Below are positions 2,441 through 21,434 of a stretch of DNA of 26,200 bases, one piece after another. This DNA comes from a virus: positions 1 to 26,200 of IMG/VR virus record IMGVR_UViG_3300047472_000459. The stretch is one strand, 5' to 3'. The stretch's first letter is position 1. Each line of letters starts with the position of its first letter. A program made the translations under genes and the position numbers. The notes beneath the pieces are model-generated. The model was not told the DNA's origin. It worked only from the letters and a program-made list of their open reading frames with translations, and ran no database searches.

Positions 2441-3803
2441 TGAGCAACCTCCTGTATTCCTGCATCGCCATGACCGTTGCCTCCATGTCGCGGAGGTCGA
2501 TCGCTTGCTTGAGCGCCATCAGGGCCAGCAACTTCCGAGGGTCCGCCGGCTCCACCGGCACGGTCGGCGCGGGCGGCGCGACCCCGAGCTGGTCAAGGGG
2601 GATGAGGTTGGACTGGACCGTGAGCATGTCGGCGCCCGGGCTCGTGTCAGGCGGAAGATTTTCCTTCGCCCGCATCTCATTGCGCTTCATCACGCCATTC
2701 TGGCCGAGCGATGAGTAGAGTGCGGCTCGGGCGGCGCTATCAGCGCGCAGCAGGCCTTCGACGCTATGTTCCGCGTAATAGCTACCCCGGTCCTCCGGTA
2801 GCAGCAGCTGCCGACCGACCGCTTCCTCGATCCGGGTCAGCTCCGGGCCAAGGCCGAGCGTGAGCCACGCCAGCACCAGCTGCTCGATGCCACTGCCCCA
2901 CATCGTTTGGCCCTGGGCCGCGTGGCCGATCAGGACAGGGAAAACCCCAAACCAGCGGCAGATTTCCTCGACCGAAAAGCGCCGCGTCTCCAGGAGTTGT
3001 GCATCGGACGCCGTCATTTTGAGCGGCGTGAACTTCATGCCGGGGTCGAGCGGCATAACCTTGCCGGTCTGAGAGGATCCGGCGAACCGCTCGAACAGGG
3101 CGACAAGCTGCTCGCGCTGCTCAGTCTTTAAGGTTGTGCCGGTCGCGAGTTCAACGAAACCGGCGACCTGTAGGCCGCTTGCGAAGGTTGACCCCGCCAC
3201 CTCTTCGGCCGCGAGCGACGTGGCGAGGGTCTGACGGCCGAACCCGATAGGGGACAGGCCCTCATCGCCCCCGGCGCCGAAGCCACGGAGATGGAAAATG
3301 TCGCTCGCGCCCAGATCTTCCTCCCGGGCGCCGGTCCACGCCTTGTAGCGGCGCTCGCCGGCGGCGGTGCGATATGGGCGAACACGATCGGGGACGAGCG
3401 GCCAGAGTGCTACGACCTGACCATCGCCGCGCCGCCCAATCCGCGCATACGCGTTGCCCCGAAGGTTGAGGGCGGTGATTTGCCCCTCCCAAAACTCCAT
3501 CGCGGACTGATCAGTATTGGGGGCGTCCTGCAGCACACGATAGAGCGGATGATCCTCCGCCGGACGGCGTTCGAGCGCCGAGGTGCGCTGGTAGAGCTTG
3601 AACGGGAGTGCCCCGATCGTCCGCGCGTTAAGCCGCACGCAAGCCCATGCCGCAGAAAGCTGCATTGTGCTCTCGGCGTTGACCGCCTTGCGAGCAAACG
3701 TTGGGCCACCGGCCAGGCGCCACTCATCTTCTCGGCGGGACGAGCGTTCCAGCTTCGCCGGCGTCCCCGATAGCCAGGATACGACGGTCTGATAGATGCT
3801 CAC
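2427..3803 (-). CDS. HK97-family phage portal protein
   Basis: 458 residues; forms the dodecameric ring at the packaging vertex through which DNA enters the head. Recognisable stretches are AESTMQLSAAWACVRLNART (about 43-62), the core around PLYRVLQDAPNTDQSAMEFW, and the central RRFSVEEICRWFGVFPVLIG, all typical of HK97/Phage_portal proteins. The C-terminal 60 residues are Pro/Ala-rich and then helical. It overlaps the terminase gene upstream by 4 bases (3800-3803) and the protease downstream by 14, fitting a tightly coupled head operon. Confidence 0.95.
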   Translation of the reverse strand: MSIYQTVVSWLSGTPAKLERSSRREDEWRLAGGPTFARKAVNAESTMQLSAAWACVRLNARTIGALPFKLYQRTSALERRPAEDHPLYRVLQDAPNTDQSAMEFWEGQITALNLRGNAYARIGRRGDGQVVALWPLVPDRVRPYRTAAGERRYKAWTGAREEDLGASDIFHLRGFGAGGDEGLSPIGFGRQTLATSLAAEEVAGSTFASGLQVAGFVELATGTTLKTEQREQLVALFERFAGSSQTGKVMPLDPGMKFTPLKMTASDAQLLETRRFSVEEICRWFGVFPVLIGHAAQGQTMWGSGIEQLVLAWLTLGLGPELTRIEEAVGRQLLLPEDRGSYYAEHSVEGLLRADSAARAALYSSLGQNGVMKRNEMRAKENLPPDTSPGADMLTVQSNLIPLDQLGVAPPAPTVPVEPADPRKLLALMALKQAIDLRDMEATVMAMQEYRRLLNGGL

Positions 3804-5722
3804 GCGAACATCGCCCCCGCGGCGAGGAAGTCATCCAGGGTGCGCACGGTGCCTTGGGTGGCGATGAGCGTTCCCACGGCCATGCAGACCGCTACGGCGG
3901 CGTCGATTTTGTTCACGCTGCGCTCCTTTGTGATCCAGTGGTTGCCCCAGCGGTCTTCATCGGTGACGGCTGACATGATGGCGGAGATCAGCACGGGGTT
4001 GGTGCGGAGCCGCAGCCGGCCTTCCGCGAGGAGATCCTCGACCAGCCGAACGGAGCCCGGCATCCACAATCCTTCGGGCTTTCGATCAGCGGCCTTGGCC
4101 GCATCGATCATTGCCTGCGAGGGCTGACCCTTCTTGGTGCCGCCCTGCGGGTGCTCGATCTGCTCAATCTCAAGCCCGAGATCCGTTATCTCGGGCTCCA
4201 TACTCGTCGCGTAGGCGTAGCGATCGTATCCCAGCGCAGAGATGTCGAAGTCCCGGTCGTATTCGGCGAGGGCTTGGGCCACCTGCCGATATGCGATGCT
4301 TTTTCCCTTCGGCGCGTGCAGGTGCCCCTGCTCGACCCACAGCTCGTACGGCGCCTTGTCCTTATCAGCCCGCACTTTCAGCGTGTCGCCGGGGGTCCAT
4401 GCCTCGATCCACGCATCGTACGTCGGGCGCATGACGCGAACGATTTCGTCGCCGCGTTTGACTTCCACTTCCTTCTCGCCGGTCTCCACGCAGGCAGCGA
4501 GGGCCGTGATATCCTTGTTTCGGGAGAGATCGAGGCCGAGGCCTATCCGCTTGCCATGGTGCTGCGCGGGGTCGAACTCAGCTAGGCACGGTTCCAAGAT
4601 ATCCCGGGTGATCCATGCCACTTCAGCGTCAGTCCAGACGCAGAAATGCAGGCGGAGGATGCCGTTGCGCTTGCCCGGCATCATCTTTGCCTGCTTCACG
4701 ACGTCGGCGAGATAGTCCTCCTGGATGGTCACCCCGAGAAGCGGGTTCGCCTTCGGCCAGCAACTCGGATCTTCGAGTGGGTCGTCGCCCTTATCGAGCC
4801 CGCAGACGTAACTGAACGTGCTGTCGTCGATGACCTCGCCCAGGTACTTGGCGTCGTCGTCTTTCGCCTCGGTGTTGCCGGCCGCCACTTTGATTGCGTG
4901 GTCGTGCTCCTCACGAGCAATCGAGTTGCGGTCCGATCCGCTGTTCGTGATCATGAACAGGAGCGGCTGGCGCCGGAATTTGAAGCCGCGCTCCAGCATC
5001 TCCATCACGCCACGATCCGGATGCTCATGCACCTCATCGCAAAGTGCGAAATGGGGCCGCGGACCGGAGCCTGTCTTCTTCGCCTCGCGACTGATCGGCC
5101 GGAAGAACGAATTGCTGGCGAGATGGGCCAGGTTGTATTCCCGCCCCGGCCCGCCGCTCGCTTTGATCCGCTTCTTCAGGTCTGGCGACTTGTCGACCAT
5201 GTTGACGGCGTCGCGGAACAGAATGCCCGCCTGATCTTTCGTCGCGCCGGCGGCGTAAATCTGAGCGCCAGACTCGCCGTCTGCAAGCATACCGTAGAGG
5301 CCGATGCCACCGGCGACAGGCGACTTCCCGTTGCCCTTTCCTTGCTCGATATATGCGCGACGGAAGCGCCGATATCCGTCAGCCTTCTTCCACCCGAACA
5401 GGGATCCGACCAGGAAGGCCTGGCTTGGATGGAGGATTAGGGGCCGCCCCTCAAATTGGCCCTCGCTGAGCTTCAGCTTCGTTTCGAAAAACCGGATGGC
5501 GCGGTCCGCCGAGATACGGTCGAAGGAGAGTCCGCGTTTCGCGCCCAGCTTCAGATCGTCGAGATGGCGGCGACAGGCATTCCGTACATGGGGACCGGCG
5601 ACAATCTTTCCTGCGACGACGTCCCTTGCATAAAGCGTCGCCCGGTCAGACTCCGCTGGCGGCTTAGTCGCCGAAGAACTCGTCCTTTTCTTCCTTGGGG
5701 ACGTCGGCGCGATTCCGCTCAT
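3800..5722 (-). CDS. Terminase large subunit (Terminase_1 / HK97-like)
   Basis: 640 residues; the ATPase-nuclease motor that cuts and packages phage DNA. The ATPase domain shows a variant Walker A, EQGKGNGKSPVA (about 126-137), Walker B FALCDEVHEH (about 225-234) and coupling motif MITNSGS (258-264). The RNase-H-like nuclease domain starts at IGLGLDLSRNKDITAL (Asp398) and its last acidic residue is probably in NKIDAAVAVC (Asp about 607). TLYARDVVAGKIVAG near residue 30 is the usual family N-terminus, preceded by a basic tail. The start overlaps the small terminase by 59 bases; no later ATG precedes the conserved part, so I keep this start. Confidence 0.95.
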   Translation of the reverse strand: MSGIAPTSPRKKRTSSSATKPPAESDRATLYARDVVAGKIVAGPHVRNACRRHLDDLKLGAKRGLSFDRISADRAIRFFETKLKLSEGQFEGRPLILHPSQAFLVGSLFGWKKADGYRRFRRAYIEQGKGNGKSPVAGGIGLYGMLADGESGAQIYAAGATKDQAGILFRDAVNMVDKSPDLKKRIKASGGPGREYNLAHLASNSFFRPISREAKKTGSGPRPHFALCDEVHEHPDRGVMEMLERGFKFRRQPLLFMITNSGSDRNSIAREEHDHAIKVAAGNTEAKDDDAKYLGEVIDDSTFSYVCGLDKGDDPLEDPSCWPKANPLLGVTIQEDYLADVVKQAKMMPGKRNGILRLHFCVWTDAEVAWITRDILEPCLAEFDPAQHHGKRIGLGLDLSRNKDITALAACVETGEKEVEVKRGDEIVRVMRPTYDAWIEAWTPGDTLKVRADKDKAPYELWVEQGHLHAPKGKSIAYRQVAQALAEYDRDFDISALGYDRYAYATSMEPEITDLGLEIEQIEHPQGGTKKGQPSQAMIDAAKAADRKPEGLWMPGSVRLVEDLLAEGRLRLRTNPVLISAIMSAVTDEDRWGNHWITKERSVNKIDAAVAVCMAVGTLIATQGTVRTLDDFLAAGAMFA

Positions 5723-10110: not shown

Positions 10111-10735
10111 TACGCCTATCCCTACTGGTGAATTTCTCTTCGTTGCCGACCCACGTCCGCCAGGCGGCGTCCCAATCGACCATCCGGCTTCCCTTGCCGG
10201 CGTGGTGGTTCCGGAAGCCGTCCAGCGCCCGCTCCAGCCTCCCGGGCTCCCACCGATCGACGATCACCGCCGATACGCCGGTGAGGGGCTTGGGCGACCA
10301 GTCATCAGCGAGACGACTGGCACGGTCCTCACGGGCAACCTTCGAAGGCGCAGCCTTCGGAGGTATGGGGGTTACTGGAGGTTTGGGTGCACGTGGTGCG
10401 GGGGTCGGCGCACCTCCTGCGGGGCGCACCTCCTGCGGGGGTGCATCCTGTGCGGGGGCGCATGTGGTGCGGGGGTGGACCGTATAGAGGACGCCGCGGC
10501 CCGGATTCTCGACACGCGACAGATGACCACCGGCGACGAGCGCCTTGATAGCGATCTGAATCGCCCGCTCGGAGAGCGAGGTCATGGTGATCAGGTCCAT
10601 CTTGTCGCGCAGCGAGCGGATAGCGATCCAAGTGATGCCGGCGTCATCGGCACAGTCGGCCAATGCTGCCAGCACCACCTTCTCGGTGGCTGGCAAGGAA
10701 AGCTTCCACGCAACGGACAGCAGGCGGTTGCTCAC
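10022..10735 (-). CDS. HTH replication-initiation-type protein
   Basis: 237 residues. The N-terminal winged-helix domain (about 1-85) starts MSNRLLSVAWKLSLPATEKV and contains LAALADCADDAGITWIAIRS, the pattern of HTH_36 replication proteins. Residues about 88-135 are a Pro/Ala linker. The C-terminal domain contains ALDGFRNHHAGKGSRMVDWD and AWRTWVGNEEKF, common in phage replication proteins of alphaproteobacteria. The linker is encoded by the five iterons listed separately, as in lambda O where the origin lies inside the initiator gene. The start overlaps the methyltransferase stop by 4 bases. Confidence 0.85.
   Translation of the reverse strand: MSNRLLSVAWKLSLPATEKVVLAALADCADDAGITWIAIRSLRDKMDLITMTSLSERAIQIAIKALVAGGHLSRVENPGRGVLYTVHPRTTCAPAQDAPPQEVRPAGGAPTPAPRAPKPPVTPIPPKAAPSKVAREDRASRLADDWSPKPLTGVSAVIVDRWEPGRLERALDGFRNHHAGKGSRMVDWDAAWRTWVGNEEKFTSRDRRNAQRNYHDRPSGWAPRAGHAGLEPASLDD
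10387..10474 (+). repeat. Five 17-bp iterons, candidate phage replication origin
   Basis: Five direct copies of a 17-mer with consensus GYGCAYSYNSTGCGGGG lie at 10387-10403, 10408-10424, 10424-10440, 10441-10457 and 10458-10474. Copies two and three are identical. Start-to-start distances are 21, 16, 17 and 17 bases; three of the four are not multiples of three, so the copies are read in different frames and cannot be explained as a repeated peptide. They sit in the linker-coding part of the HTH replication gene. Iterons bound by the initiator encoded around them define the lambda-type origin; binding here is inferred. Confidence 0.7.
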
Positions 10736-12609
10736 GCGGCCACCTGCTCCTGACGAGCCACCGCATGGGACATGTTAGCGGTGGTGAGCGCCTCCGCGAG
10801 CGGAGGGCAGACGCTGTTGCCGCACTTGGCGACCTGCGCCGTCTTGGTGATCGGCGCGCCAGTGGCATCGTGCTCAATGATGTAATCCGCCGGGAAGCCC
10901 TGCGCGTTGAACAGCTCACGCGGAGTCAGCATCCGCATGCCGATATCAACGATCACATATTCCTCGCCTTCGATCGTCACGGTGACGAGGCCGAAGCGCG
11001 CCTGGTGCGTAAGTGTGTGCAGCGGCTCGTCTGCCTCCTGGCCATGCTGCGCGGAGCTATAGTATTTGAGCAGGAACGCCCGAACCTCGGCCATGTGCGT
11101 GCCACCAGCGCTGACAGTATGCAGCGGCTCGTCGACCGGCTGGCCGTGCTGGCAAGTGCCGCGCAGCTTCACCAGGTTGGATGTGACGAGGCGCTGCTGC
11201 GATCCTGATGTGGCGACAGTCGAGAGGGGGGTATCTGCCGGACGGCCTGCGAGGTTGTCGTTGTTCGGGCCGCCGTTCGCCTGCTCGAGGTGAGCGCAGA
11301 CCGCAGCATGACGCGGCGCGCCGGCCATGACCGTATGCAGCGGTTCGGCCGGGTCGATGCCTTTGCCGTTCTCAGCGAATTTCTGCATGAAAGCCGCGAC
11401 GACATGGTGCTTGATCCCGCCCGCGACCGCAGTGCCAAGCGGCTTCTCGATATCCATCGCGCGAGGAGCCTGCCCTTCCCGCTCACCGTTCCCGATATGC
11501 ACGAGGTGGGCTGCGGCGATGCAGTTCTGATCCTTGCTGGAGGCGCAGATCGTGTACATCGGCTCATCGGCGGGCCGATTTGCTCCGCCCTGCTGCGCAT
11601 AGGTGGCGAACGGCGCGATGGACGCCTCAACGAGACCAAGGGGCGCAGATCCGCCCGGCCGCTTCACAAAGCTGTTGGCGGTGACCGTGGCGAGGGGCTC
11701 ATCGATGCCGTGACCGATTGCTCCTGTCCGGAACTTCGTCACGTGGGGCACGATGATGGCATGCTCGCCACGGTTGGCACCGGTCACGGTAGCCATAGGC
11801 TGATCGATGCCCGCCCCACGCGCACCGGCCTGGTGGTGGGTCAGCGGCACGATGAAAGGGTTAGGGTTGTTGACCACGAACTTCATGATGCCGTGGGCAA
11901 TCCGGCGCAGGGTCTTCTCGGCGAGCGGCTTCTTCCGCTCGAAGATCGACGGGCACGGGATCGACCAATCGATGATCTCGGCAGCCGTGCGCCACGGCTT
12001 CAGCTTACCACTGAGAACCGCGGGGGAGGTCGGCTTGCCATGCGTCGGCTCAGGCCAAACGATCGGGCGGCCATCGCAGCGGGCGACCATGAAGAAGCGC
12101 TTCCGGATCGTCGGCGCGCCATAGTCGCACGCGCGAAGTTCGCGGAACTGGATCTTGTAGCCCTGCTTGCGCAGCGACTTGCACCACTTGTCGAACGTCT
12201 CGCCAGCTCGCGCCTTGATCGGTTGGCCTTCGTCGTCGAGCGGGCCCCAAGTGCGGAACTCCTCGACGTTCTCCAGCAGGATCACATCCGGACGGACCTT
12301 CTCGGCCCACAGCACGACGACCCACGCCAGATCGCGGATGCTCTTCTCGCGCGGCTTTCCGCCCTTCGCCTTGCTGAAGTGCTTACAGTCCGGCGAGAAC
12401 CACGCGAGCTCGACGTGCTGGCCGCCAGTCACATCGCGAGGGTCGATCTGCCAGATGTTGTTCCTGATGTGGCGGGTCGCCGGGTGGTTGACCTCGTGCA
12501 TGCGGATAGCCTGCTCGTCGTGGTTGATGGCGATGTCCACGGCGCGACCGAGGGCCGCCTCGATGCCCGTCGAGGCACCACCGCCACCGGCGAAATTGTC
12601 GACGATCAT
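10732..12609 (-). CDS. DNA (cytosine-5) methyltransferase with a repeat-built target domain
   Basis: 625 residues. Transfers methyl from S-adenosylmethionine to cytosine in DNA. Motif I is DNFAGGGGASTG (4-15), motif IV WFSPDCKHFSK with catalytic Cys75, motif VI LLENVEE (111-117), motif VIII region TIRKRFFMVA (167-176), motif IX RMLTPRELFNAQGFP (559-573) and motif X QVAKCGNSVCPPLAEAL (592-608). Between about 255 and 555 the target-recognition region holds eight units ending in a DEPLxTVxA-like motif. Likely protects phage DNA from host restriction. It overlaps both neighbours by 4 bases (ATGA type). No restriction enzyme gene is adjacent. Confidence 0.93.
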   Translation of the reverse strand: MIVDNFAGGGGASTGIEAALGRAVDIAINHDEQAIRMHEVNHPATRHIRNNIWQIDPRDVTGGQHVELAWFSPDCKHFSKAKGGKPREKSIRDLAWVVVLWAEKVRPDVILLENVEEFRTWGPLDDEGQPIKARAGETFDKWCKSLRKQGYKIQFRELRACDYGAPTIRKRFFMVARCDGRPIVWPEPTHGKPTSPAVLSGKLKPWRTAAEIIDWSIPCPSIFERKKPLAEKTLRRIAHGIMKFVVNNPNPFIVPLTHHQAGARGAGIDQPMATVTGANRGEHAIIVPHVTKFRTGAIGHGIDEPLATVTANSFVKRPGGSAPLGLVEASIAPFATYAQQGGANRPADEPMYTICASSKDQNCIAAAHLVHIGNGEREGQAPRAMDIEKPLGTAVAGGIKHHVVAAFMQKFAENGKGIDPAEPLHTVMAGAPRHAAVCAHLEQANGGPNNDNLAGRPADTPLSTVATSGSQQRLVTSNLVKLRGTCQHGQPVDEPLHTVSAGGTHMAEVRAFLLKYYSSAQHGQEADEPLHTLTHQARFGLVTVTIEGEEYVIVDIGMRMLTPRELFNAQGFPADYIIEHDATGAPITKTAQVAKCGNSVCPPLAEALTTANMSHAVARQEQVAA

Positions 12610-16568: not shown

Positions 16569-16744
16569 ACGCTTTCACCGTCCCAAGGCTTTGTCGGCGA
16601 GACTTCGCCCGCGATGGAAGCGCTCAGCGCGTCGAGCTTTTCGAAGAACGGCCTCACCGCTTCGGCAACCGAGGCGCCAATGATGGTGGCCAGCTGCTCG
16701 GCGGTAAGCTCTACGCCGTTCGGATTACCCCCTTCGATCGTCAC
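16565..16744 (-). CDS. Small hypothetical protein, GTG start
   Basis: 59 residues read from a GTG at 16744 that overlaps the stop of the Cro-like gene (GTGA); its TGA overlaps the ATG of the next gene (ATGA). Sequence begins VTIEGGNPNGVELTAEQLAT and continues as a helical stretch with VAEAVRPFFEKLDALSAS. Both junctions are of the exact overlap type used throughout this operon, which is the main evidence that it is a gene. Function unknown. Confidence 0.7.
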   Translation of the reverse strand: MTIEGGNPNGVELTAEQLATIIGASVAEAVRPFFEKLDALSASIAGEVSPTKPWDGESV

Positions 16745-17004
16745 GCGTGCGCCTCCGCCGGGTTCCGGCCGACGGTGCGACGGGTCCGCTTGCGAAAAGG
16801 GGGCGGCGATGCCTCGGGAATATCGAAGAAGGAGTTAGCCGTGACGTGGCCTTCCGTCTCTTTCACAATGCGGGGCATTGTTTCGCGATCGGGAATGCGA
16901 TCTCCCGCCGCATATCGCCGGACTGCCTCAGCCGTGCGCTTGATCCGCGCGCCGAATTGGGCGTGCGACAACCCCTTCCAATCAAGCCACTCTTTGAGCG
17001 TCAT
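16741..17004 (-). CDS. Cro-like HTH repressor
   Basis: 87 residues from the ATG at 17004, which has AAGGAG with an 8-base spacer; the frame extends 8 codons upstream without support. MTLKEWLDWKGLSHAQFGAR then RTAEAVRRYAAGDRIPDRE is the compact HTH pattern of Cro/CI-family phage repressors (about residues 3-50), followed by a basic tail. First gene of the leftward early operon, divergent from the CI-like gene and transcribed from the promoter that overlaps operators 1 and 2. By analogy with lambda it competes with CI for those operators. Confidence 0.85.
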   Translation of the reverse strand: MTLKEWLDWKGLSHAQFGARIKRTAEAVRRYAAGDRIPDRETMPRIVKETEGHVTANSFFDIPEASPPPFRKRTRRTVGRNPAEAHA

Positions 17005-17022
17005 CCGATGAACTCCTTGCAC

Positions 17023-17095
17023 CACCATTATGGTGTCGAAGCAGTGTATCAGTCAACACCAATTTGGAGTGTGGAGCTGCTCCACCAAATTGGTG
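17023..17095. promoter_or_regulatory. Divergent immunity control region with three operators
   Basis: Three palindromes sit between the Cro-like and CI-like genes: CACCATTATGGTG (17023-17035), CACCAATTTGGAG (17057-17069) and CACCAAATTGGTG (17083-17095). The consensus is CACCAw-n-wTGGTG. On the minus strand a promoter with -35 TTGACT (17056-17051), an 18-base spacer and -10 CATAAT (17032-17027) faces the Cro-like gene; its -10 lies inside the first operator and its -35 abuts the second. This is the arrangement expected for repressor-operator control of a phage early promoter. The rightward cI promoter is not clear. Confidence 0.85.
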
Positions 17096-17106
17096 CAGAT
17101 GGTGTC

Positions 17107-17805
17107 ATGAACTCCGTCAACAACATCGAAGCGCTGCGAGAGGCGCGCGGATGGAAGCGGCCAGAGCTGGCTAGGCGGATGGACACCACTCCTCAGCAAG
17201 TGGAGCGGTTGGAAAAAGGACAGCGGAAGCTGAGCCAGGATTGGATAGACCGGGCCGCAAAAGCCTTTGGTGTCGCCCCCGCCGACATCATTAGCCCGGG
17301 GGTGGATGTATCCGCCGCGGTGATGCAGCCGGGCCCTCGCGACAGATCGGCGCAGTCAGATCATCTTCCGACGCGGAGCGCGCACCAAGATGACGGCGCG
17401 GTCGAGGTTCGCCAAGTTGATCTTGCCTACGCTATGGGGCCGGGCACACATGTCGATGATTTTCCTGACGAAATCCCCGTTAAGTTTGACCCTCACTTTC
17501 TGAGGGCTTTGACCCGGGCCGCCCCCGAGCGGCTGTTCGTAGCCCGAGGCGACGGCGACAGCATGTCCCCGACGCTGATCAACGATGACATGGTCATGAT
17601 CGACACCACGCAGAAGATGCTCAACATGCAGGACCGCATCTGGGCTGTTAGCGTCTACGGCGCTGGAATGATCAAGCGGCTTAGAGCGACCGGTGAGGGA
17701 AAAGTAATGGTTTTGTCGGACAATCCGACGGTGCCCGAGCAAGAGGTCAGTGCAGAGGATCTGCATATCGTCGGGCGAGTCATCTGGGTCGGGCGACGGA
17801 TCTAA
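17107..17805 (+). CDS. CI-like phage repressor (XRE HTH plus S24 peptidase-like domain)
   Basis: 232 residues from the ATG at 17107; the open frame upstream runs through the operators and is not coding. HTH domain at about 6-60: NIEALREARGWKRPELARRM and TPQQVERLEKGQRKLSQDWI. A linker about 62-100 leads to the LexA-like S24 domain with Ser152 in ARGDGDSMSPTLINDDMV and Lys190 in GAGMIKRLR, the usual catalytic pair. Ala-Gly or Cys-Gly, the usual self-cleavage sites, do not occur in the linker. Expected to hold the prophage silent by binding the CACCA/TGGTG operators on both sides and to drive the downstream three-gene unit. Confidence 0.92.
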   Translation: MNSVNNIEALREARGWKRPELARRMDTTPQQVERLEKGQRKLSQDWIDRAAKAFGVAPADIISPGVDVSAAVMQPGPRDRSAQSDHLPTRSAHQDDGAVEVRQVDLAYAMGPGTHVDDFPDEIPVKFDPHFLRALTRAAPERLFVARGDGDSMSPTLINDDMVMIDTTQKMLNMQDRIWAVSVYGAGMIKRLRATGEGKVMVLSDNPTVPEQEVSAEDLHIVGRVIWVGRRI

Positions 17806-17834: not shown

Positions 17835-18728
17835 TTGGCAACCTTTGAACTTCATCATCTATCGCTCGCGCCACGCTTACAGGCTGGGCTTTTCGACGAG
17901 CGACTCAGCAAGCCGGACTGGCTCCGGAAAGCTTTTGGAGAGCAACGTCGATTTGAGCATCGGGGAAATCTGTTCCACTGGGTGCCTTATGACACGTCAG
18001 GCGCGATCATTGGGGTCATCGAGCGCCAATATCCCATAAACCATTATGATCCCCCTGAAGATGGGGGCAAGCCGACATCGAGCGACATTTGGCAAGGTGC
18101 GGTCGTTACAATCGATCCTGAGCACCATAATGATGGACAAAAGCTGGCGTTCGAGCGCGGCACTAAGGTCGGGCAGCCCCTTGCAGTACTATCGTCGCTT
18201 GTGGGCCAACTAAATCTTATTGATGGCGCGCCTTACATAATTACCATCAAAGCGATCTGGGACGAGCAGAGTTTTCAGACATTCGCCAGCCGGCATGCCA
18301 ACATTCTCAAATCGATCACGTTTGACTTTGTCGTTCCGAACATGTTCGATTTGTCTGGGAAGCTAGACGAAAAGTTGAAACAGGTCGGCGAAGATACGGG
18401 GGCCCAGCATGTGAAGCTGACTCTGGAAAGCCCGGACGGCGTCAAGGCGGATGCTCCCGAGGTCCAAGCAGGAGTTGCATATGGCTCGAAGGGGCAGGCA
18501 ACGTTGACGGCGGTTGCCATGGACGGAGACAGATACACCTCGACGAACAAAGTGAGAACAAGTAGGGTTGCGAGCCTGCTTGGGCAGGGGAAGGCATTGC
18601 TCGCCGTGATTAGGGATAAGCTCGACGAGGTGTTAGGACAGGACGATGCTGGTACAGGTGGCCCTGATCGCGATAGCGACGATTCTGGCGACGGCCAGCA
18701 TAAGCCTACCGGGCGCACTGAGCGATAG
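17835..18728 (+). CDS. RexA-like protein (candidate superinfection exclusion sensor)
   Basis: 297 residues. Start set at TTG 17835 because GGGGGA lies 6 bases upstream; a GTG at 17817 is in frame. Soluble, no membrane segment. Order of segments parallels lambda RexA: GNLFHWVPYDTSGAIIGVIE (RexA LYIHKIDGKTFLF), a QGAVVTID...LAFERGT stretch (RexA FLFVEGD..GFARTVFGPT), ILKSITFDFVVPNMF (RexA SLDIVIKPKF) and a late VKLTLESPDG...SKGQATLT stretch (RexA ISLRAKDEAG...KGHLSAPL). Identity is low. It lies 29 bases after cI and overlaps a membrane protein gene, the lambda cI-rexA-rexB order. Lambda RexA senses phage DNA-protein complexes. Confidence 0.5.
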   Translation: MATFELHHLSLAPRLQAGLFDERLSKPDWLRKAFGEQRRFEHRGNLFHWVPYDTSGAIIGVIERQYPINHYDPPEDGGKPTSSDIWQGAVVTIDPEHHNDGQKLAFERGTKVGQPLAVLSSLVGQLNLIDGAPYIITIKAIWDEQSFQTFASRHANILKSITFDFVVPNMFDLSGKLDEKLKQVGEDTGAQHVKLTLESPDGVKADAPEVQAGVAYGSKGQATLTAVAMDGDRYTSTNKVRTSRVASLLGQGKALLAVIRDKLDEVLGQDDAGTGGPDRDSDDSGDGQHKPTGRTER

Positions 18729-19074
18729 CGGCAATGCTTTTCTCAAAGGCTTTGTAAACCAAGAGCTGTTGGCGACGCTTGGCGTGATCGTGACAATAAC
18801 CCTAGCTTCCGCTGGCAGCATCCACATCGAGCTTGGAAAGCTCGGTCGGCAGCTTTCGGTAAACTTCGACCGTGAAAAGCAAGCCGTCCGAGCCAGTGCC
18901 TACCTGCTTATCGCCATTTTTTTGGCGTCGCTAGTTCTAGTCGTTCTGAAGCCCATCGTGGCTACGGCAGAGCGAGCGTCGGCATTTGCGAATTCCGCTG
19001 GTATCTTCCTTTTGGTGTGGGCAGTGGCGGTTCTATACGACCTTACACGTGCGGCTTTTCGCATTAGTAGGTGA
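18646..19074 (+). CDS. RexB-like four-helix membrane protein
   Basis: 142 residues, close to lambda RexB (144). Four hydrophobic segments at about 3-22, 41-61, 85-105 and 115-134; between the second and third is a charged cytoplasmic-type loop (ELGKLGRQLSVNFDREKQAV). The last helix ends VAVLYDLTR, where lambda RexB ends LVFQLYNLTR. RexB is the inner-membrane effector that depolarises the cell when activated by RexA. The gene starts 83 bases inside the rexA-like gene, with AGGACAGGA before the ATG, so translation is coupled. Homology is inferred from size, topology, the final motif and context. Confidence 0.5.
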   Translation: MLVQVALIAIATILATASISLPGALSDSGNAFLKGFVNQELLATLGVIVTITLASAGSIHIELGKLGRQLSVNFDREKQAVRASAYLLIAIFLASLVLVVLKPIVATAERASAFANSAGIFLLVWAVAVLYDLTRAAFRISR

Positions 19075-19085
19075 GCATCTCAGTC

Positions 19086-19490
19086 ATGAGCCTCGCCGTC
19101 GTTGGCGTCGCGTACCCTAATCGCAAAGGCGGGAGCCGCCAGTTCGAAATCGCGGTTTGCGAGCCTGGCGAGCCCGTTGAGCTCCGACCGGAGCCTACTA
19201 ACCCGGCAGATCACTACGCCGTTGCGGTTTATAGCTGCCGCGGCATTCAGATGGGCTATATTACTGCGGAGCGAGCGCCTTGGATCAGCCGCCAGCTTGC
19301 CGAAGGGCGCGAAATCCGCGTCATCTTCCAGAATAGCTTTCCCCGCGGCGCGTGGATTCGAGCAGCTTTTGACGGCTTCGACCCCATTCTGCCGCCCATG
19401 GCGCCACCCTTGTTCATCTCAACTCGCGACTCTGACGCCGTCGATGTCGAATCCTCCTTCGAGCCGGACTTCATTCCACCAGACGATTAA
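19086..19490 (+). CDS. HIRAN-domain protein
   Basis: 134 residues from the ATG at 19086 (AGGTGAG about 10 bases upstream); a GTG at 19071 overlapping the membrane gene stop is an alternative. Residues about 2-80 form a HIRAN domain: LAVVGVAYPNRKGGSRQFEI, EPVELRPEPTNPADHYAVAV, then SCRGIQMGYITAERAPWI. HIRAN domains bind DNA, in eukaryotic HLTF at free 3' ends. The acidic Pro-rich C-terminus (DPILPPMAPPLFISTRD onward) looks disordered. It closes the cI operon, and the first of the two right operators starts at the last base of its stop codon. A DNA-end sensor for the Rex-like pair is a hypothesis. Confidence 0.85.
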   Translation: MSLAVVGVAYPNRKGGSRQFEIAVCEPGEPVELRPEPTNPADHYAVAVYSCRGIQMGYITAERAPWISRQLAEGREIRVIFQNSFPRGAWIRAAFDGFDPILPPMAPPLFISTRDSDAVDVESSFEPDFIPPDD

Positions 19491-19535
19491 CACCAATACG
19501 GTGTTGACACGATAACACCAATGTGGTGTTTTTAT
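19490..19535 (+). promoter_or_regulatory. Early right promoter with two CI-type operators
   Basis: Two copies of the immunity-region palindrome are present: ACACCAATACGGTGT (19490-19504) and AACACCAATGTGGTGTT (19514-19530). A consensus -35, TTGACA (19504-19509), lies between them and shares its first base with the first operator, exactly as in the left control region, where an operator also abuts TTGACT. The -10 is not clear (TGTTTT at 17 bases or TTTTAT at 20). It faces the rightward operon starting at 19556. Confidence 0.75.
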
Positions 19536-20649: not shown

Positions 20650-21036
20650 ATGAGCGAAGAAACGGCCATCACGCCCCCCGCAGGCGAATACGCAATTGTT
20701 GAATGCTTGGGCCACCGGACCCTGGTCGGTCGCACGAGCGAGGTCGAGCGGTTCGGAACTAAAATGCTCTCGATCGAGCCCATCTTTCGCAACGAGTTGA
20801 TGCCGGCCGTTCTCGTTGGTGGGTCGTCACTCTACGCCTTCACGCCGTGCAGCGGAGAAGTCGCGTTCGCAAGGCAGCCCCGCAATGAATGGGAGTTGCC
20901 TGCCTCGATCCGAGCTACGCTGCCGGCGTTGGCATTGCCTGCGCCAGGCGAAGAGGCACCCGAGTTTAATCCGCAGTTCCTTAGGGAAGCGCCCCACGTC
21001 GACGGGTGCGACTGCGACGATTGCACGATGTTCTGA
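20650..21036 (+). CDS. Conserved hypothetical phage protein
   Basis: 128 residues from the ATG at 20650 (GAGGG, 6-base spacer). The pattern EYAIVECLGHRTLVGRTSEV, FGTKMLSIEPIFRNELMPAV and SSLYAFTPCSGEVAFARQPR is one I recognise as recurrent in proteobacterial phages, but without a known function. The C-terminus ends GCDCDDCTMF, with three Cys that could bind metal. It follows the membrane gene by one base, and its stop overlaps the nuclease start (TGATG). Confidence 0.8.
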   Translation: MSEETAITPPAGEYAIVECLGHRTLVGRTSEVERFGTKMLSIEPIFRNELMPAVLVGGSSLYAFTPCSGEVAFARQPRNEWELPASIRATLPALALPAPGEEAPEFNPQFLREAPHVDGCDCDDCTMF

Positions 21037-21434
21037 TGCGCCGTCGGTTCATTCCTATCGGCGAGCCTATGGCAGAGCGGAGCGTTCAGCGCGGCGCCAT
21101 CGGCTTGCTGGCGCGCTTCGGCTTTCGCGCCGCGCATGTACCGAACGGTGCCCAGCTCGCCGGCGACCGGCTCGCGCGGATCAAGCAGATCGCCGCGCTG
21201 AAGGCGGACGGGTTCGCGCCCGGCTTCCCCGACCTGATCGTCTTCGGGAAGCGGGCCGGTGAGATCGGCTTCATGGAGTGCAAGCGGGAGAAGGGCGGCA
21301 AGCTGTCCGACGAGCAGCTGCACTGGCGCGACTTCCTCCTAGCGCTCGGCTTCCGCTGGGCGCTGGTCGAGACGCCGGAGGATGCCCTGACGGCCGTCCG
21401 ATCGTGGGGCTGGATGGAGGCGGTTGCGGCATGA
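21036..21434 (+). CDS. VRR-NUC domain nuclease
   Basis: 132 residues from the ATG at 21036. PD-(D/E)XK core is visible: GFPDLIVFGK (Asp66), GFMECKREKGGKLSDEQ (Glu81 and Lys83, then Gln94), typical of VRR-NUC phage nucleases. The N-terminal helix ERSVQRGAIGLLARFGFRAA also fits. Such enzymes are thought to act on branched or structured DNA during phage replication or recombination. ATGA overlap with the next gene. The frame upstream to 21006 is not supported by a ribosome site. Confidence 0.9.
   Translation: MRRRFIPIGEPMAERSVQRGAIGLLARFGFRAAHVPNGAQLAGDRLARIKQIAALKADGFAPGFPDLIVFGKRAGEIGFMECKREKGGKLSDEQLHWRDFLLALGFRWALVETPEDALTAVRSWGWMEAVAA

Follow-up and report, generated by a model that had tools for sequence, protein, structure and literature searches.

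A recurrent HIRAN-domain gene at the end of the cI operon in lambda-like immunity regions of temperate phages of sphingomonads

The sequence studied is a 26.2-kb virus record (IMG/VR IMGVR_UViG_3300047472_000459, positions 1-26,200), referred to below as the window. Two features of lambda-like immunity regions are present in it (Table 1): a divergent cro/cI pair with operators in between and, as in the related loci described below, a second set of operators with a promoter behind the final cI-operon gene. The Cro-like gene is also matched by the repressor family PHROG 35 (E=4e-4) and has a counterpart at the same place in a related locus (L004); cI is assigned to the repressor family PHROG 4 (8e-38). 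The Ser-Lys dyad of the S24 domain (Ser152/Lys190) is conserved across the cI family, which carries a conserved (S/A)MG where lambda CI and LexA have their Ala-Gly cleavage site, so that damage-driven cleavage of CI is only putative here. The palindrome ACACCAw-n-wTGGTGT occurs in three copies between cro and cI and in two at the HIRAN end; altogether, the window holds seven matches, as against 0.9 expected, of which five are the OR and OL sites.

Table 1. Features of the immunity region in the window.
Feature	Position	Strand	Evidence or remark
Cro-like HTH gene	16741..17028	(-)	Divergent from cI; HTH match E=0.0016, below Pfam cut-off
OR-type operator CCACCATTATGGTGT	17022..17036	.	Palindrome match
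OR-type operator ACACCAATTTGGAGT	17056..17070	.	Palindrome match
OR-type operator CCACCAAATTGGTGC	17082..17096	.	Palindrome match
cI repressor, HTH + S24 peptidase domain	17107..17805	(+)	Peptidase_S24 6e-15, HTH_31 9e-11 (Pfam)
Cargo gene 1, "RexA-like", 297 aa, soluble, TTG start	17835..18728	(+)	Homologues L100-L103
Cargo gene 2, "RexB-like", 142 aa membrane protein	18646..19074	(+)	Four hydrophobic segments
HIRAN gene, final gene of the cI operon	19071..19490 (alternative ATG start 19086)	(+)	ORF, Pfam, PHROG, AlphaFold2, Foldseek
HIRAN-domain part matched by PF08797	19092..19304	(+)	Pfam; residues 8-78 counting from 19071
Acidic-aromatic C-terminal tip FEPDFIPPDD, conserved	19458..19487	(+)	Alignment of relatives
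OL-type operator over the HIRAN stop codon	19489..19505	.	Palindrome match
TTGACA, -35-like, of a PL-type promoter, between the two OL operators	19504..19509	(+)	Sequence
OL-type operator, second	19514..19530	.	Palindrome match

The open reading frame of the HIRAN gene is intact. Its start is probably the upstream GTG rather than the ATG, since the GTGA overlaps the stop codon of the gene before it and yields an N-terminus as long as those of the relatives. As read from the sequence, the gene is translationally coupled to its upstream neighbor; in 59 of the 67 related loci compared in detail, the HIRAN start lies at most 30 bp from the preceding stop (median 6 bp). An earlier note on this DNA had placed a HIRAN gene behind a RexB-like gene in the cI operon, and this assignment is borne out: the protein matches PF08797 with 41.3 bits at a cut-off of 24.7 (E=1.4e-10), PHROG 27141, a family of unknown function, covers its full length, and in a Foldseek comparison of its AlphaFold2 model (pLDDT 91.6, from an alignment of 87 relatives) with the PDB, the HIRAN structures of HLTF rank first (4xzg, E=1.1e-5, TM 0.59/0.65). 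Profile comparison of the HIRAN family with HLTF gives E=2e-7.

Eleven positions are invariant among 87 sequences of the family, including N39 and D42, the counterparts of HLTF N91 and D94 in the alignment. In the HLTF HIRAN domain, a dinucleotide is stacked on Y72 and Y93, and DNA binding is abolished in the NN90,91AA mutant (PMC4666394). An aromatic residue equivalent to Y72 is found in 99% of the relatives (alignment by eye); N90 and Y93 are not kept, the latter being replaced by Ala in the window. The fold, the N91/D94 equivalents and the aromatic at the Y72 position (again by eye) are common to the phage protein, HLTF/Rad5 and the stand-alone bacterial protein lp_0118 (3k2y), whereas the phage protein differs from HLTF/Rad5 in standing alone without a helicase, in the Y93 replacement and in its acidic-aromatic tail. 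This tail had been described as acidic and disordered; it is indeed acidic, but it consists of a variable linker that ends in a conserved tip. The motif [FWY]xPD lies within the last 18 residues of 90 of 108 distinct cI-linked HIRAN proteins, compared to approximately six with shuffled tails. Since a terminal motif behind a variable linker is usually a binding site, the tip may well bind some partner. The closest pairs of HIRAN genes have dN/dS values of 0.10-0.24.

HIRAN is the sole Pfam match in the protein. Prokaryotic HIRAN domains are also known in a conflict setting, as here, from the HipL kinases and HipN antitoxins (PMC8262856), from which the phage protein differs in that both a HipS and a Hip kinase domain are absent; membership in HipN/HipL was rejected on these grounds. 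Phage HIRAN proteins have already been annotated as such, for example in DLP4 (PMC6469090). The titles and abstracts of open papers on HIRAN and prophages, to which the literature search extended, contain no description of HIRAN in a repressor operon.

The two genes between cI and HIRAN resemble rexAB in layout: the RexA-like gene begins 30 bp after cI, and a soluble protein with a multi-pass membrane partner in this place is also the arrangement of lambda RexAB and of RexABpp of Pseudomonas putida, with approximately 300 aa for the soluble and 142 aa for the four-segment membrane protein (PMC11077077, PMC12894663). In contrast, similarity of sequence to lambda RexAB was not detectable. Neither protein has a match in the protein-family libraries searched (Pfam and PHROG among them), and hhalign gives probabilities of 0.1% for RexA-like versus lambda RexA and 0.7% for RexB-like versus lambda RexB, in both cases with a profile of five sequences that remote homology may escape. 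The AlphaFold2 model of the RexA-like protein, built from five sequences, is too poor (pLDDT 43) to judge an RdgC-like two-domain fold, and this low-confidence model yielded no Foldseek match at E<=0.001. Homology of the pair to lambda RexA/RexB was thus not retained: the "Rex" neighbors of the earlier note stand as a layout behind cI, and "Rex-like" is a statement on layout alone.

The RexA-like protein was found on four other viral contigs, at 73-78% identity in three (L100-L102) and as a distant homologue in the fourth (L103). All four carry the pair, and all four lack HIRAN; in L101, the order is cI-rexA-rexB-operators. This distribution suggests that the pair is a mobile two-gene module, and it is exchangeable cargo, being probably an exclusion or defense module in its own right. 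In L100 and L103, the pair adjoins an apparent tail or late-control gene.

The recurrence of the locus was assessed from two directions. A search of viral and genome collections seeded with HIRAN returned approximately 100 loci, almost all of them in sphingomonads or in phages of these bacteria; most have a co-directional S24 cI upstream of HIRAN, which itself is the final gene ahead of a promoter. Among the 80 best loci of a second search, which was seeded on cI and blind to HIRAN, 67 have HIRAN downstream of cI, and 13 do not, one of these on a contig that stops just past cI. The cI profile was derived from HIRAN-linked cI and is biased toward such loci; hence, the proportion of 67/80 holds for this branch of cI, and among the nearest cI matches in 200 genomes of the family, HIRAN is found in only about half. 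Both searches combined gave 105 distinct cI-HIRAN loci. Their recurring order is cI-[variable cargo]-HIRAN-OL/PL, and the Rex-like pair accompanies HIRAN in a single one of them, the window itself. The proposed block is therefore confirmed for cI and HIRAN and not for cI-rexA-rexB-HIRAN: downstream of cI, HIRAN is accompanied by many unrelated genes or by no cargo, and the pair occurs elsewhere without it. Since the genes between cI and HIRAN, here the Rex-like pair, differ between viruses while HIRAN stays, HIRAN appears to belong to the dormancy switch rather than to the pair. It is not essential, as the 13 loci without it indicate, together with L101 and L104, which have the same OL layout and no HIRAN; a strict requirement for HIRAN throughout the cI family was also rejected in view of its absence from many more distant genomic cI loci. 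The best reading of these sequence comparisons is that HIRAN is a near-core protein of the lysogenic operon in a lambda-like immunity region found in sphingomonad temperate phages. Related S24 cI genes in other prophages (L171-L188) lack HIRAN and are accompanied by variable genes of their own; several of these loci end beside a late-control-D-like gene.

The architecture downstream of HIRAN recurs as well. A TTGAC is found at most 70 bp after HIRAN in 49 of the 67 loci (44 of 1,340 random windows), and its two flanks are alike in 37 of 47 loci, compared to 2.6% of shuffles, giving an operator-TTGAC-operator arrangement within 13-55 bp after HIRAN. Each phage has its own operator palindrome, which often recurs upstream of cI: the palindrome after HIRAN matches one upstream of the phage's own cI in 34 of 67 loci and in 12 of 335 comparisons of mismatched phages, a count that does not derive from the fixed 15-base scan for odd palindromes, which misses operators of even length.

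The interval between cI and HIRAN is shorter than 60 bp in 21 of the 67 loci, leaving no room for cargo, and extends up to 2,067 bp in the others. Over the 105 loci, it contains 110 proteins of 72 families, 54 of which were seen once. Recognizable cargo includes a HipA_2 kinase with DUF3037 (PADLOC candidate PDC-M66), a PemK toxin and an AAA/STAND ATPase, besides acyltransferase-SGNH and Rap1a proteins, DUF1828 and DUF7946/7947; the most frequent family is a GGGG-coiled-coil-membrane protein with 12 copies. HipA_2 kinases occur only as separate cargo, in two of the 67 loci. The modules around the slot differ in divergence, the median identity being 17% for the HTH halves of cI, 39% for the S24 halves and 58% for HIRAN. 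Distances of S24 and HIRAN are weakly correlated (Mantel r=0.25, p=0.002), and those of HTH and HIRAN are uncorrelated (r=0.005), the HTH halves being so diverged that their distances may be saturated. In one pair of loci (L052/L054), the HIRAN sequences share 91% identity, and cargo, OL and S24 are close to background level; in another (L040/L051), HIRAN and S24 are kept, and cargo, HTH and OL differ. Close relatives retain HIRAN while cargo, operators and the HTH domain are swapped, and such persistence amid exchange suggests a core function in the phage more than an optional defense gene.

The immunity region of lambda itself (NC_001416) likewise has a divergent cro, OR, cI as the first gene, accessory genes and then OL/PL in the same direction. 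However, the operon here ends with HIRAN and not with rexB, OL adjoins the HIRAN stop (lambda rexB lies 174 bp from OL3), and the sphingomonad loci have a hypervariable slot between cI and the last gene and many operator specificities in one family. The sphingomonad region thus adds to the lambda layout a last gene that is new and constant, together with a variable slot. Most knowledge of temperate phages comes from lambda, with rexAB after cI; in the loci described here, a near-constant HIRAN gene ends the lysogenic operon, and a domain known from eukaryotic fork repair provides a testable link from DNA-end recognition to prophage stability. The cI-HIRAN interval is a mapped and easily searched insertion slot, the families of which are mostly unknown and in part related to toxins or candidate defense systems. 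It may serve as a catalogue of genes predicted to be expressed in lysogeny in bacteria whose phages are little studied.

HIRAN genes also occur away from cI. Sphingomonas chromosomes contain stand-alone homologues that mostly branch outside the cI-linked set, and 6 of 48 chromosomal HIRAN genes without cI lie less than 150 bp from tRNA genes (L091, L092, L144, L148, L153 and L154), that of L153 between tRNA-Tyr and tRNA-Gly. In addition, fifteen Sphingobium/Sphingomonas plasmids carry a HIRAN gene, 39-53% identical, for example at 195340-195747 of NZ_CP005190. In view of these copies, the notion that every HIRAN copy is a phage gene was rejected.

The most likely role of the protein is that of a DNA-end-binding modulator of prophage stability, the mechanism being inferred. 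In the following manner, HIRAN, as the conserved last gene of an operon ordered cro, OR, cI, cargo, HIRAN, OL/PL, could tune prophage induction, a reading that we favor tentatively and with somewhat less than even confidence: The protein would be expressed in lysogens under the cI promoter. The HIRAN domain would bind stalled forks or single-stranded 3' ends of DNA, and the acidic-aromatic tip may hold a partner from host or phage. Together, domain and tip would set the DNA-damage inducibility of the prophage by tuning the RecA/SOS-driven inactivation of CI. This role is favored because HIRAN stays while the defense-like cargo turns over, also where cargo is absent, and because two other products of cI operons, 434 Hex (PMC3564112) and lambda RexA (PMC11077077), tune their switches. 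Hex, which is proposed as a functional precedent and is likened to HIRAN by role only, is likewise a second cI-operon product with lysogenic expression, although its reading frame overlaps the repressor gene. The main rival, which we consider rather unlikely, is that HIRAN on its own is a superinfection-exclusion or defense protein that recognizes the 3' ends or replication intermediates of incoming phages and either blocks them or uses its tail to trigger a response. Its position in the lysogenic operon beside a slot with toxin, HipA_2/DUF3037 (PDC-M66), STAND-like and acyltransferase genes would fit such a function, as would the presence of HIRAN in the PADLOC candidate PDC-M03B and in the kinase-antitoxin proteins HipL/HipN (PMC8262856). 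However, defense-like genes at this locus turn over fast and HIRAN was kept in 67 of the 80 cI-seeded loci, it carries no fused effector domain or partner, and the copies on chromosomes and plasmids are solitary or lack linkage to cI.

Stand-alone chromosomal homologues in Sphingomonas, some of them by tRNA genes and mostly outside the cI-linked set, would agree with HIRAN being a captured host DNA-repair gene that aids infection or replication; it would then have stayed next to OL mainly because the HIRAN-OL segment acts as an anchor for module exchange, with lysogenic expression incidental, and HIRAN does stay alike where both flanks are replaced (L052/L054). We regard this as improbable: in lambda-like switches, a gene of the cI operon is repressed or out-competed once lytic growth is under way, the spacing from the gene before it indicates that HIRAN is translated together with cI, and OL is swapped independently of HIRAN in the very same pair. 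The idea that HIRAN could serve all cargo as a shared DNA-end sensor, signaling damaged or invading DNA to any effector that occupies the slot, the Rex-like pair included, would mean one sensor for dozens of unrelated defense cargos; the cargo-free loci argue against it, and its chance appears slim. Least of all do we expect HIRAN to be the third subunit of a Rex system that supplies DNA recognition. In the window, the three genes overlap or abut and follow cI, which had led to the proposal of HIRAN as a sensor of invading phage DNA for such a system, but this combination is limited to one of the 105 distinct loci, HIRAN is found without the pair everywhere else, L100-L103 have the pair but not HIRAN, and the sequence comparisons gave no link to RexA/RexB. 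The mutual absence leaves the sensor idea unsupported, and a Rex partnership was rejected on co-occurrence.

Outside the immunity region, a gene with a VRR_NUC nuclease domain is found downstream of OL at 21006-21434 (Pfam, E=2e-7), and the minus strand encodes the large terminase subunit (3800-5722) and a large DNA methyltransferase-like protein (10732-12609), both identified by PHROG.
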